A stretch of DNA of 37,489 nt, from assembly GCF_015207375.1 (NCBI RefSeq), contig NZ_JADEWY010000062.1:1-37489 (forward strand), read 5' to 3'. This document shows positions 13,415 to 24,883 of the stretch, in pieces (positions within the stretch are counted from its first letter, which is position 1; every line of letters begins with the position of its first letter). The notes beneath the pieces are model-generated. The model made no database searches. It saw only the letters and a list, made by a program, of their open reading frames with translations, and was not told the origin of the DNA. A program made the translations under genes and the position numbers. Source of the stretch: Coleofasciculus sp. LEGE 07092. GTDB taxonomy: Bacteria; Cyanobacteriota; Cyanobacteriia; Cyanobacteriales; Coleofasciculaceae.

Positions 13415-14065
13415 TCACGTCCCAAAGGCGCGATCGCCTGCATCCCCCAATCCTGGCACAATATATCCCTGCTGGTTTAGTTCTTCATCAATGATTGCCG
13501 AATAAATCGTCAAACTCGGATAACTCGCACCCAACTTTTGCAATGCTGGTGGTGCGGCAACAACGCTGATAATCCGTGTTAATGCTGGATCAAGACCCCG
13601 TTTCGCCAATTCTGCCATCGCTAGCATCATTGTGCTACCCGTTGCCAGCATCGGATCGACGATCAAGATTCGTGCGCCTGCCTCAAATTGATTCGGTAAC
13701 TTATTCAGGTAACAGTGAGCTTCTAAGGTTTGCTCGTTGCGTACTAACCCCAGATGGTAAACCGATGCCAGGGGTAACAACGTCTGCGCCCCCTCTAATA
13801 GTGCTAATCCTGCCCGTAGAATCGGCACTACTACCAAGGGAGTTTCTGGATTAACCATTGTCGCTGGACAGGGAGCTAGGGGCGTCTGTACCATAAGGTC
13901 TTCCGTTGGCAACCAGTCACGAATTGCCTCATAAGTTAGCCAGCGTCCCAACTCTGTCATCGCGCTTTTGAACAGGGGCGATGGTGTCGCCGCGTCGCGG
14001 GCAACGCCCAGCCAATGTTTGATCAGAGGATGAGGTGGAACGTAGACACGCAGTTGGGGAGACAT
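13415..14065 (-). CDS. upp: Uracil phosphoribosyltransferase
   Basis: Makes UMP from uracil and PRPP in pyrimidine salvage, in the cytoplasm. The 216-residue length is typical. The PRPP-binding stretch ILIVDPMLATGSTMMLAM is present and the uracil-binding C terminus reads YIVPGLGDAGDRAFGT, as in Upp rather than in PyrR. The N terminus (VYVPPHPLIKHWLGVARDAA) also fits. No uracil permease lies next to it. The gene is divergent from the crtH side; its start codon is about 180 bp from the strong promoter at 14244, which points the other way. Confidence 0.96.
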   Translation of the reverse strand: MSPQLRVYVPPHPLIKHWLGVARDAATPSPLFKSAMTELGRWLTYEAIRDWLPTEDLMVQTPLAPCPATMVNPETPLVVVPILRAGLALLEGAQTLLPLASVYHLGLVRNEQTLEAHCYLNKLPNQFEAGARILIVDPMLATGSTMMLAMAELAKRGLDPALTRIISVVAAPPALQKLGASYPSLTIYSAIIDEELNQQGYIVPGLGDAGDRAFGT

Positions 14066-14243
14066 AACAGGTAACGCAGAGGGGATAACTGAACAATATT
14101 AACGCATAGCCTTTCATTCGTATCCCTTATAAAGGGACAGTATGTCTGGCTGTATTTTATAATCCTTTGTTTTCAGGGACACTGACTCGGAATCCGGGTT
14201 AAATTGCGTTTTCCTTGACTATTGCTATTATTTTTCAATAGTG

Positions 14244-14272
14244 TTGACATAGATTTTCAATAAAGCTATAGT
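14244..14272 (+). promoter_or_regulatory. Strong sigma-70-type promoter
   Basis: TTGACA at 14244-14249, a 17-base spacer and TATAGT at 14267-14272: a perfect -35 and a five-of-six -10. The expected start point is near 14279. A terminator follows after about 30 bases, so it drives either a short free RNA or an attenuated crtH leader. Confidence 0.8.
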
Positions 14273-14278
14273 AACGGT

Positions 14279-14353
14279 CAGTGTTCTCCTCTCATTAAGG
14301 ATCGGTAGGTGGGACGGGTAAGCCAAAGCTTGCCTGTACCCCCACTTTTTTTT
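14279..14353 (+). ncRNA. Candidate ~75-nt small RNA upstream of crtH
   Basis: Bounded by the promoter at 14244-14272 and the terminator at 14309-14353. The unpaired 5' part, about 30 nt, is pyrimidine-rich (GTGTTCTCCTCTCATTAAGG). CUCCUCUC is complementary to Shine-Dalgarno-like GAGAGGAG sequences, so a base-pairing sRNA is plausible. No ORF with a ribosome site fits inside. It does not match the Yfr1 or Yfr2 motifs as I know them. The alternative is premature termination in the crtH 5' leader. Confidence 0.45.
14309..14353 (+). terminator. Intrinsic terminator between promoter and crtH
   Basis: Arm GTGGGACGGGTAAGC at 14309-14323, loop CAAA, arm at 14328-14345 with a three-base bulge and two G-U pairs, followed directly by eight T (14346-14353). 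It is a textbook Rho-independent terminator on the plus strand. Confidence 0.85.
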
Positions 14354-14356
14354 AAG

Positions 14357-14375: not shown

Positions 14376-14432
14376 GTCAACCATAAACGCTACACTCAAA
14401 TTTGATCACAAAGTCAAAAAACGCTCACGTTC

Positions 14433-15971
14433 ATGCCTGTTGCTTCCCAACTTCGCTCCTCTACCAATCAATCTCCGACTCGTGAATTTGATGCCATTGT
14501 CATTGGTTCCGGCATTGGAGGACTGGTAGCTGCTACTCAGCTTGCCGCAAAAGGCGCAAAGGTGCTAGTCCTAGAACGCTACCTAATTCCGGGTGGCAGT
14601 GCGGGTTACTTCGAGCGCCAAGGGTATCGATTTGATGTTGGTGCGTCGATGATTTTTGGCTTTGGTACAGACGGAACGACAAATCTGCTCACCAAGGCGC
14701 TTGAGGCAGTGAATGTCAGTCTGGAGACAATGCCGGATTTCGTTCAGATTCACTATCACCTCCCGGAAGGATTAGAGCTGAAAGTTCACCGAGACTATGA
14801 GAAATTCTTGCAAGAACTAATAGCTCAATTTCCCCAGGAAGGACAGGGAATTCGCCAGTTTTACGACGAATGCTGGAAGGTGTTTAACTGCCTGAATGTG
14901 ATGGAGTTGTTGTCTTTGGAGGAAGTCCGGTATCTGAGGCGAGTCTTTTTCCAGCATCCGCTAGCTTGTTTGGGATTGGTGAAGTACTTACCCCAGAATG
15001 CAGGGGATATCGCTCGGAAGTATATCCGTGACCCACAGTTGCTAAAGTTTATTGATATGGAATGTTACTGTTGGTCAGTGGTGCCTGCGGAGCGGACGCC
15101 GATGATTAATGCAGGGATGGTATTTAGCGATCGCCATTATGGAGGCATCAACTATCCTAAGGGGGGTGTGGGGCAAATTGCACAGAAACTGGTAGAGGGA
15201 TTAGAGAAAGCTGGGGGGCAGATTCGGTACCAAGCCAGAGTGACGGAAATTCTCATCGAAAATGGCAAAGCAGTCGGAGTGCAATTAGCCGATGGGAATG
15301 TTTATCAGGCAAAACGAATTATTTCCAATGCCACCCGCTGGGATACCTTTGAGAAATTACTGCCACCTGAACAAATGCCAGCCAGTGAGAAAAAATGGCA
15401 GCAGCGGTATCAGAAGTCACCGAGTTTTTTGAGTTTGCACTTGGGGGTTGAGGCGAGTGTCTTGCCAGTTGGTACAGAGTGCCACCACATTTTGTTAGAA
15501 GACTGGGAGAATATGGAAGATGCAGAGGGGACAATTTTTGTATCGATTCCCACCCTGCTTGACCCGGATTTAGCACCACGAGGGTATCACATTGTTCATA
15601 CCTTTACACCCAGTTGGATGGAGGATTGGCAGGGGTTGTCTGTTAGAGAGTACGAACAGAAGAAAGAAGATACCACAGGGCGAATTATTGAACGACTAGA
15701 AAATATTTTTCCGGGTTTAGATGCAGGATTAGATTACATGGAAGTAGGAACCCCTCGCACTCATCGGCGCTTTTTAGGGCGCGAGGATGGAACCTATGGA
15801 CCAATTCCGAGACGCAAGTTAAGGGGATTACTGGGAATGCCGTTTAATCGAACGGCAATTCCAGGACTTTATTGTGTAGGGGATAGTACGTTTCCTGGAC
15901 AGGGGTTAAATGCGGTGGCGTTTTCGGGATTTGCTTGTGCTCATCGAGTTGCTGTTGATTTGGGATTGTGA
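14433..15971 (+). CDS. crtH: Carotenoid isomerase (prolycopene isomerase)
   Basis: FAD-dependent enzyme that converts poly-cis lycopene to all-trans lycopene in cyanobacterial and plant carotenoid synthesis, at the membrane. The dinucleotide-binding motif [16 protein letters not shown] lies at about 22-38, followed by [20 protein letters not shown], which matches the CrtISO group rather than CrtI desaturases. Further family marks are [26 protein letters not shown] and the C-terminal FAD segment [20 protein letters not shown]. Length 512 is normal. No other carotenoid gene is adjacent. The strong promoter at 14244 is followed by a terminator, so expression of crtH may need read-through or a second, unseen start within the 80-base leader. 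Confidence 0.95.
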
Positions 15972-16053: not shown

Positions 16054-16590
16054 TCATGGCTTGGCTTTCTGAAAATTGATATTATACCAGTTTTTTAGGT
16101 CAGAGTTTCTATTCTGGAGATGTCTAATAGTCTCCCAGCGCTGTGGATTAAATGCCTCTGGATCGGGATAGAGTTCACTCATATGATGAGTATGGTAAAG
16201 GCTGACAAATACCTCCGTGCCTGTGGGTAATGCATAATCTCCCAGCTCAGTGGGTTGTGACGTGACACGCCCGTTCCAAGGCACAGGGGACAAAACGCGC
16301 AGACTTTCTTTGACGACTCGATCCAACAACGGCAACTGTTGCAACTGCTCAACGGTTGGAGCTTCACCCTTGAGCACACTTTGCAGTTCATCCAGCATGG
16401 CAACCATATCATCGCGGTAAGACTCTAGGCGCTGTTTATGAAAAGCGGGCATCATGAGTTGACGATGTTGCCGATGCTGCTCACTGTTGACGCCAAATAA
16501 CCCGACGAGAAAATGTTTTAAGGGTTCAGTGCCAAAACCCTTTTTCTTTGTATAATTTACTACCAAAGGGTAAAGCAATTTTAAGACCAT
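16054..16590 (-). pseudogene. Cytochrome P450 remnant
   Basis: A 178-codon frame made of two P450 pieces. Residues 1-72 correspond to the helix B'-C region (VNSEQHRQHRQLMMPAFHKQ). Residues about 73-150 jump straight to the K helix and beyond: LDRVVKESLRVLSPVP with the ExxR pair, then PTGTEVFVSLYHTHHM and the YPDPEAFNPQRW segment. The I helix with its oxygen-activating Thr is missing (roughly 130 residues lost), the first 70-80 residues are absent, and the haem-Cys segment is replaced after RWETI by unrelated residues coming from the dispersed repeat at 16107. It cannot bind haem. Its ATG lies 3 bp from the stop of the Uma2 gene, so it may still be transcribed. Confidence 0.85.
16107..16126 (+). 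repeat. Dispersed 20-bp repeat at the P450 breakpoint
   Basis: TTCTATTCTGGAGATGTCTA, identical over 20 bases to the minus-strand copy at 1825-1844. On the minus strand the P450 homology ends exactly where this repeat begins. Confidence 0.75.
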
Positions 16591-22950: not shown

Positions 22951-23844
22951 TTACCGAGCTACATGATGAAAATCAATCATCGCCTGCCGATAAAACTCCG
23001 GCATTCCCGTATCAAAATACTGCCCTTTAACCAAATACCCAATCATTCCCCCTTCTTGCCGCAACTTGTCAAGGCAGGTTGTTAGTTGAAATTCTCCTCT
23101 TTCCCGGATGTTCTGGTTAATATTCTTTTCGAGAATGTCAAACATTTTTGGCTCTAGTACATAGATTCCAAATATACCCAGAAAATAATCCTTTGTTATC
23201 CCTTTAACCTGTAGATGCTGACGTGCGTACTCTACATCTGGTTTTTCACAAACCTGGGTGACAGTAATAATTGAGTCAGATTCCTGCCAAGTGCCGGCAA
23301 CACAACCTGCTTTATGAATAAGTTTTGCTGGCATAATGGTTAATCCAATCACACTCTGATTGACTTGTTCATAAACCTTTAAAACTTGATCAGTACATGA
23401 AGTTTCATTATCTGAGGTATAAACATGATCGCCGAGCAGTAACAGAAATGGCTCATTATTTACCCAGTCTTTTGCACAGAAAACGGCATGACCGTAACCT
23501 TCTTGTTCCGCTTGAACTAGAATAGTAATTCGCTGTCCTAGTTCTTGGAGATATTTACAGTAGGTTTGATTTTCTGGGGAGAGTTTGTTCCACAATTCTG
23601 GCTTGGGTGGAGCTTTAAAGAAGTCCTCAAAAATTTTGCGATCGCTCGGTTGCACAACAATCCCAATCTCTTCTATCCCGCCACTCACAGCTTCTTCTAC
23701 AATCGCTAAAATTACGGGTTTGGCACGACCTTCTCGATCGATAATGGGGAACAGTTCTTTTTTGAGGACTTTTGTAGCGGGAAACAGGCGAGTGCCGAAG
23801 CCTGCTGCCGGAATCACGGCTTTGCGAACCTTAGGAGTCTGCAT
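22951..23844 (-). CDS. GalU-like sugar-1-phosphate uridylyltransferase
   Basis: Nucleotidyltransferase that joins a nucleoside triphosphate, most likely UTP, to a sugar 1-phosphate. The N terminus has the signature VIPAAGFGTRLFPATKVLKK, with KPVILAIVEEAVSGGIEEI after it and LLLLGDHVYTSD for metal and nucleotide binding, then KGQYFDTGMPEFYRQAMIDF at the end. 297 residues fits GalU. The start overlaps the end of the GHMP kinase by 14 bp, so translation is probably coupled and the substrate is likely the kinase product. That argues for a salvage role rather than general UDP-glucose supply, though UDP-glucose pyrophosphorylase cannot be excluded. Confidence 0.9.
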   Translation of the reverse strand: MQTPKVRKAVIPAAGFGTRLFPATKVLKKELFPIIDREGRAKPVILAIVEEAVSGGIEEIGIVVQPSDRKIFEDFFKAPPKPELWNKLSPENQTYCKYLQELGQRITILVQAEQEGYGHAVFCAKDWVNNEPFLLLLGDHVYTSDNETSCTDQVLKVYEQVNQSVIGLTIMPAKLIHKAGCVAGTWQESDSIITVTQVCEKPDVEYARQHLQVKGITKDYFLGIFGIYVLEPKMFDILEKNINQNIRERGEFQLTTCLDKLRQEGGMIGYLVKGQYFDTGMPEFYRQAMIDFHHVAR

Positions 23845-24883
23845 GAATGGTTAAGGTTAACGGTTGCATTTGAGGGAAATCACGCTTAATTAGTCTAATA
23901 ACTTTTTGTTGACTGGTCTTGTCTTTAACAATAAATTGGGCAGTGCCATCCCCTTGAGAACCAACACCCTTACCTCCCCAAATATAAGGCTGAATGGGTT
24001 CGTAATTGAGCAGTTGGTGCAAGACAGGAGCTTTCAACTGTCCGGGGCAGGCGGGGATAAGATATCGGTCAAATTCAGCTTGAGCTTTTTTCATTAGAGT
24101 ACCAAGTTGTTCGGCATTTCCCTGTTGCAGTGCGTCAACGGCTTCCTGGGTAATTTTAGAACTGATAGCACCGAGATAGTTCTGCACATTCTTCTGTACA
24201 GTGTCAGTAGCGAAGGGATAACACTGATTAAGCTGGCTGAGAATTTGTCGAGTATTTTTGCTAGCTCCAAGGTCTACCATCACAAAAAATAAATCATTCG
24301 GCACCTTTAGCTCGATAATATCAATGCGATCGCCATCAAAAATCATCAAGATGGGTTGACTGCCGTAGGCACAAGCTTGATCCATGCGCCCACACAGAGA
24401 AGGGGTAGCAATTTCCCCCAAATAAGCATATTCCATTTCCCCTCGGAGGGTCATTTTCAAGTCATACAACTGATTGAAAGCCCGTGCCGCTAAAACGCAG
24501 ATAGTAGCACTCGATGCCAATCCTTTCTGAACGGGTAAATCTGTTTGATAATTGTCGATTTCTAGTCCACCCACCTGGAAGTAAGAGAGAAATTGGTAAG
24601 CAACGCCAGCGGCATAACTAAAAAAACCACCCCTTCGGGCTTCCGTTAGCAAAACCTCCCGTTCCATAGGGAGCTCAATTACCTCTGGAGGGGTGCCATC
24701 ACTGAGGGAGGCGTGAAGTATAAGGTGGGTAGGATGGGGCTTTACCTCGGCATACAGTCCCTGATTGGTGCCAGTGATAATGGCATAACCCTTTTCTAGC
24801 TGACGATTCAGGCGGCGATAGCTTCCTGCCCAATCGCTATGTTCCCCAAACAGACACAACCGACCTGGAACGAAAAGTTTCAT
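23831..24883 (-). CDS. GHMP-family sugar kinase
   Basis: ATP-dependent kinase of the galactokinase/homoserine/mevalonate superfamily, 350 residues. It starts with the family motif VPGRLCLFGEHSDWAG, has the ATP loop LPVQKGLASSATICVLAARA at about 115-134, and a C-terminal Gly-rich motif WGGKGVGSQGDGTAQFIV. The substrate is not readable; the galactokinase-like GEHSDWAG and a uridylyltransferase overlapping its end suggest a free sugar or uronic acid phosphorylated at C1, as in plant glucuronokinase, arabinokinase and fucokinase salvage routes. It is the first gene of the two-gene operon. No strong ribosome site is seen before the ATG. Confidence 0.87.
   Translation of the reverse strand: MKLFVPGRLCLFGEHSDWAGSYRRLNRQLEKGYAIITGTNQGLYAEVKPHPTHLILHASLSDGTPPEVIELPMEREVLLTEARRGGFFSYAAGVAYQFLSYFQVGGLEIDNYQTDLPVQKGLASSATICVLAARAFNQLYDLKMTLRGEMEYAYLGEIATPSLCGRMDQACAYGSQPILMIFDGDRIDIIELKVPNDLFFVMVDLGASKNTRQILSQLNQCYPFATDTVQKNVQNYLGAISSKITQEAVDALQQGNAEQLGTLMKKAQAEFDRYLIPACPGQLKAPVLHQLLNYEPIQPYIWGGKGVGSQGDGTAQFIVKDKTSQQKVIRLIKRDFPQMQPLTLTIHADS

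Follow-up and report, generated by a model that had tools for sequence, protein, structure and literature searches.

The closest described counterpart of the RNA reported here is IsaR1 of Synechocystis sp. PCC 6803, described in passages of several papers (PMC6202907, PMC5386190, PMC12090762, PMC7247011, PMC9915242, PMC8136909) as a 68-nt sRNA, conserved in many cyanobacteria, that iron starvation induces through a Fur-type promoter. The targets given in those passages are petF, petJ, petABDC1, hemA, sufBCDS, sodB, acnB and chlN, and its published start in Synechocystis 6803 is given as 3164320; in a passage of PMC12090762, the authors suggest that such an sRNA may be absent from Trichodesmium. 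A second RNA of the same strain, NC-181, is reported in a section of PMC3516471 as about 70 nt long and strongly induced by iron starvation on Northern blots, with possible homologues noted in widely different cyanobacteria. NC-181 is probably the same RNA as IsaR1, which we infer from these descriptions, having found no paper naming both. Among proteobacteria, RyhB and PrrF offer an analogy, without any claim of sequence relation, as Fur-repressed sRNAs that lower iron-using proteins when iron is scarce. Here, we analyzed a 37,489-nt stretch of Coleofasciculus sp. LEGE 07092 (contig NZ_JADEWY010000062.1, hereafter the window), and we put at roughly 93% the probability that it holds this cyanobacterium's isaR1, an iron-stress sRNA gene acting on the sufB and petF mRNAs. 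Its anatomy, its conservation, a Fur-type box and its pairing with sufB and petF were all established by computation.

The gene, on the forward strand, begins with a promoter that can be read directly in the DNA: a TTGACA −35 box (14244–14249; at least five of six matches in 89 of the 91 loci compared below), a 17-base spacer and a TATAGT −10 box (14267–14272), as the sequence-only reading had described. It scores 11/12, the highest among 10 promoter-like sites within 11 kb, a count not above chance (12.3 expected); a scan of the 381-base intergenic region found three such sites against 1.0 expected. Seven bases separate the −10 box from a conserved A at 14280, and we place the predicted start there from this spacing and from the conserved first base. 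The predicted RNA runs from 14280 to 14353, about 74 nt, so that the free, terminated RNA proposed earlier stands with its length corrected from about 75 nt; an RNA model matches 14280–14351 with E = 4.0e-23, the window sequence itself being among the 28 used in building that model. Between the start and the hairpin lie 28 mostly open bases with CUCCUCUC, in which CTCCTCTC can be read at 14286–14293; the block AGTGTTCTCCTCTC at 14280–14293 is followed by AAGGATCGG and then by a GC-rich hairpin (about 14308–14345) with eight T (14346–14353), together forming an intrinsic terminator at 14308–14353. The strong hairpin and T run after some 30 transcribed bases that had been noticed in the letters thus hold.

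Folding of 14279–14355 gave −28.5 kcal/mol (z = −3.6), and none of 200 shuffles was as stable. The hairpin at 14308–14345 was not listed by a simple terminator scan, probably because its stem has bulges. The 5′ part is mostly open, in keeping with the earlier description of it as single-stranded, but its CUCCUC core is not wholly so: UCCU (14287–14290) and AGGA (14298–14301), 7 bases on, can pair in a weak helix of 4 bp, worth about −2.3 kcal/mol and leaving UCCU with an unpaired probability of about 0.2 in a 73-nt RNA. RNAalifold also places the seed core in a short helix, in which no compensatory change was found and which is therefore no evidence for that pairing. Being weak and lacking compensatory change, the UCCU/AGGA helix would be at most a weak lid on the core.

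This RNA gene is old and conserved, and it is not an orphan. With promoter and RNA as the DNA query, 92 of 97 genomes matched at E ≤ 1, the weaker of these matches having been only partly checked, and 67 of 97, own genome included, at E ≤ 0.001. Nor is the RNA universal: of 20 genomes from the family to which the window belongs, 14 reached E ≤ 0.001, and the six that did not include some incomplete assemblies, together with one genome (G007) that is 99% complete and also fails the RNA model. Two genomes, G059 and G081, have a DNA match that the model did not recover. Across the phylum, a covariance model of the RNA alone matched 95 of 386 genomes (E ≤ 0.01); three of these matches near the threshold, including both outside the class, are probably chance. 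Among 388 genomes of the order, 223 contain the pattern TTGACA, then 26–34 bases, then GTGTTCTCYTCTC, and one contains the reversed pattern used as a control. In an alignment of 28 RNAs, the first 12 positions (AGTGTTCTCCTC) of the 5′ seed AGUGUUCUCCUCUC (14280–14293, forward strand) are invariant in 28/28, all rows having been picked by that motif; a second conserved segment, UUAAGGAUCGGUAGG, follows at 14295–14309 on the same strand. More distant genomes carry seed variants such as CUCUUC. The RNA is also present on a contig named Synechocystis salina, lying 50–85 bases before crtH in the locus (L065) that we take to be this contig, and all five genomes of its genus match; the four copies read there have CUCUUC, whereas the Coleofasciculus RNA has CUCCUC.

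To compare whole loci, we took 91, one per genome, from genomes with a match: 30 came from the DNA query, one from a search of the genus and 60 from the RNA model alone. The query included the promoter, so the 30 loci and the one are not independent evidence for it. A promoter scoring at least 9/12 is present in 90 of the 91 and in 59 of the 60 loci that came from the RNA model only, and a 3′ hairpin with TTTT, at −8 kcal/mol or lower, in 86 of 91; promoter and hairpin are thus conserved together beyond chance. No Rfam family matches the RNA at the gathering threshold, and a relaxed threshold returned chance matches only. It is very probably a new copy of a known kind of sRNA that has no counterpart among the Rfam models.

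A FurA-type box lies across part of the promoter, pointing to putative control by Fur. The box-like site ACATAGATTTTCAATAAAG (14247–14265, forward strand) covers part of the −35 box and spacer and has 15 of 19 matches to the Anabaena FurA consensus AAATAAATTCTCAATAAAT printed in a section of PMC4005646. At least 14 of 19 matches to this consensus occur within 75 bases upstream in 51 of the 91 loci, against 5.2% of shuffles, with 36 of the 91 overlapping the promoter and 29 lying further upstream, some loci having both; among the loci found by the RNA model only, 37 of 60 reach this level. An inverted repeat, CTATTG...CAATAG (14219–14241, forward strand), can also be read upstream as a possible Fur-type site; one relative (L012) has a fuller repeat, GTTGAAAATTATTTTCAAC, at the same place, and other relatives have looser forms. 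The genome encodes three Fur-family proteins.

To predict targets in 15 genomes with both sRNA and target loci, we paired nucleotides 1–30 of each sRNA with the sufB, petF and hemA start regions, taken from 80 bases upstream of the start codon to 6 bases beyond it. The background consisted of 161–215 windows from the same loci, leaving out 250 bases around each target start; these are random stretches rather than start regions, and Shine-Dalgarno sequences are thereby only partly controlled for. A first duplex-energy background was dropped, its controls still containing sRNA loci and target sites. Measured against these local windows, rather than as a whole-genome ranking, sufB paired at p < 0.01 in 13 of 15 genomes and at p < 0.05 in all 15, and petF at p < 0.01 in 8 and p < 0.05 in 13. 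In the Coleofasciculus genome itself, sufB reached −30.7 kcal/mol, with none of 215 windows as good, and petF −23.6 kcal/mol (p = 0.005; one of 215 windows as good), both beating the start regions of all 28 open reading frames in the window (best −22.2). By contrast with its published listing as a target, hemA pairs weakly here (own genome p = 0.15; p < 0.01 in 1 and p < 0.05 in 2 of the 15 genomes). Target prediction with the 5′ 30 bases had been suggested with the first description of this RNA, and together with the conservation it gives good computational support to the free, translation-repressing sRNA with an anti-Shine-Dalgarno seed proposed there.

The sufB match has two parts: bases 1–9 of the RNA pair with GAGAACACT near the start codon, and CUCU, together with AUUAAGGAU of the second conserved segment, pairs with the more distant upstream site ATCCTTAATAGAG. 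The petF site, which pairs with the seed, coincides in part with that gene's Shine-Dalgarno sequence, so that some of the petF signal may be nothing special. When the longest perfect seed match is taken instead, no more than 5–6 nt can be matched in 4 of 15 sufB start regions, and the mean shuffle fraction is 0.17 for sufB, 0.05 for petF and 0.55 for hemA; this test has little power where pairing includes G-U pairs or is split into two parts. Exchanging sRNAs between genomes changed mean sufB pairing from −28.0 (own) to −26.7 (exchanged), a result only mildly positive for co-evolution. Separately, a GHMP-kinase-like gene in the window (23831–24883, reverse strand), with weak similarity to mevalonate kinase, has in its start region a 7-nt perfect match to the seed complement, the longest of 22 open reading frames tested from the window, which may be chance.

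The RNA lies between two genes that recur beside it: upp, for uracil phosphoribosyltransferase (13415–14065, reverse strand; over the cut-offs of NCBIfam NF001097 and TIGR01091), which is divergent here and in 63 of the 91 loci in all, and crtH, for carotenoid isomerase (14433–15971, forward strand; TIGR02730, 976 bits), which follows the RNA in the same orientation in 68 of 91. Beyond crtH, a 178-aa cytochrome P450 fragment (16054–16590, reverse strand) has as its sole listed Pfam stretch profile positions 299–393 of 462 and looks like a deleted remnant.

The same-strand order of RNA and crtH in those 68 loci, and the crtH ATG only 79 bases after the T run in the window, are what favor a cis attenuator, in which the promoter would be crtH's own and the hairpin a conditional terminator setting read-through into crtH; the sequence-only reading had held such control of carotenoid supply to be equally possible. 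It also draws on our scan of the stretch from terminator to ATG in the window, which found no sigma-70-type promoter with both boxes and no −35 box. An attenuator would be expected always to lie upstream of the gene that it controls, however, and at 22 of the 91 loci the RNA and its promoter persist although tblastn (E ≤ 1e-10) over more than 1.4 kb of downstream sequence finds no crtH; 15 have neither neighbor, one of them (L026) with just 750 bases downstream. Measured in the 55 loci whose crtH ATG is clear, the distance from the RNA ranges between 45 and 970 bases, the other 13 of the 68 crtH loci having been dropped from this and the following count. Past the terminator, a −10-like element TACACT lies at 14391–14396 on the forward strand, 42 bases before the ATG, and TA[AC]ACT recurs between terminator and ATG in 31 of 55 loci (the window's own included) against 8.9% of shuffles, most often about 42 bases before the ATG; from this conservation, crtH probably has its own transcription start after the terminator. 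The strongest conservation sits in the 5′ seed, and pairing at the crtH start region does not rise above background in the Coleofasciculus genome (p = 0.83). We accordingly consider an attenuator very unlikely and no longer on a par with a free sRNA.

Pairing above background was likewise not found for the upp start region (p = 0.45). A 2026 review (PMC13414033) gives upp and crtH as IsaR1 targets in its Table 1 and in a passage of its text, citing Georg 2017, and the pairing test in this genome lends that passage no support; as both genes flank the RNA here, the review probably mistook neighbors for targets. The two are best described as syntenic neighbors without predicted pairing.

We judged the identity of the RNA against published descriptions of IsaR1, not by sequence alignment, and it is this reliance on descriptions rather than a reference sequence that leaves some room for a different, uncharacterized sRNA with a CUCCUC seed merely at the same place. 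Against such a coincidence, which we hold to be highly improbable, stands agreement with IsaR1 in flanking genes, length class, Fur-type box, phylum-wide spread, sufB and petF pairing and occurrence within the genus Synechocystis. In the Synechocystis 6803 system, as here, a free small RNA in a upp-crtH context is widely conserved, has a Fur-type promoter (a putative one here) and finds pairing partners in the sufB and petF start regions; the length published in the passages cited above (68 nt) is shorter than the roughly 74 nt predicted here. Because length, neighbors, Fur box, targets and spread match the published accounts, the window very likely carries a copy of IsaR1. Yfr1 is another cyanobacterial RNA with a CUCCUC-type single-stranded core. 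That this RNA should be Yfr1, or some other known anti-Shine-Dalgarno RNA of cyanobacteria, is nevertheless scarcely credible, since no Rfam family matches it and Yfr1 sits, according to a passage of PMC6202907, between guaB and trxA in Synechococcus elongatus, not between upp and crtH.

With IsaR1 as the preferred identity, one variation on its architecture was seen in relatives. The seed AGTGTTCTCCTC is duplicated, with copies 9–12 bases apart, in 7 of 388 genomes of the order, from one family and two genera (L088 2659–2694 in G078, L089 2328–2360 in G056 and L090 2553–2585 in G028; also L171–L173 and L175). One promoter precedes the pair in the three loci that were read out, and a single strong hairpin follows in the one that was folded. 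IsaR1 may conceivably be two-handed, its seed and AAGGAUCGGCAGG gripping two sufB sites and a duplicated seed able to hold two mRNAs, and its lasting position ahead of crtH might mark a residual read-through link from iron starvation to carotenoid isomerization; we consider this combined proposal speculative and on balance rather unlikely.

Induction by low iron, repression by Fur and repression of translation are carried over from work on Synechocystis, and together with the features above they suggest how the gene would operate. When iron is plentiful, iron-loaded Fur would occupy the box overlapping the −35 region and spacer and keep isaR1 off. As iron falls, Fur would leave, the strong sigma-70-type promoter would start transcription at A14280 and the terminator at 14353 would release the RNA, some 74 nt long, in free form. 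The 5′ part of this RNA (AGUGUUCUCCUCUC and UUAAGGAUCGG) would then pair with the ribosome-binding regions of mRNAs for iron-rich and Fe-S-assembly proteins, foremost among the tested targets sufB, through the two-part match, and petF, and pairing would block translation and lower synthesis of the target proteins; crtH and upp would be bystanders. The RNA model and the promoter-plus-seed pattern find this sRNA across the phylum, and the identification gives a name and a testable job to an RNA without a matching Rfam model: in this cyanobacterium, by analogy with Synechocystis, it is very probably the product of a gene switched on in iron shortage that turns down iron-hungry photosynthesis proteins.
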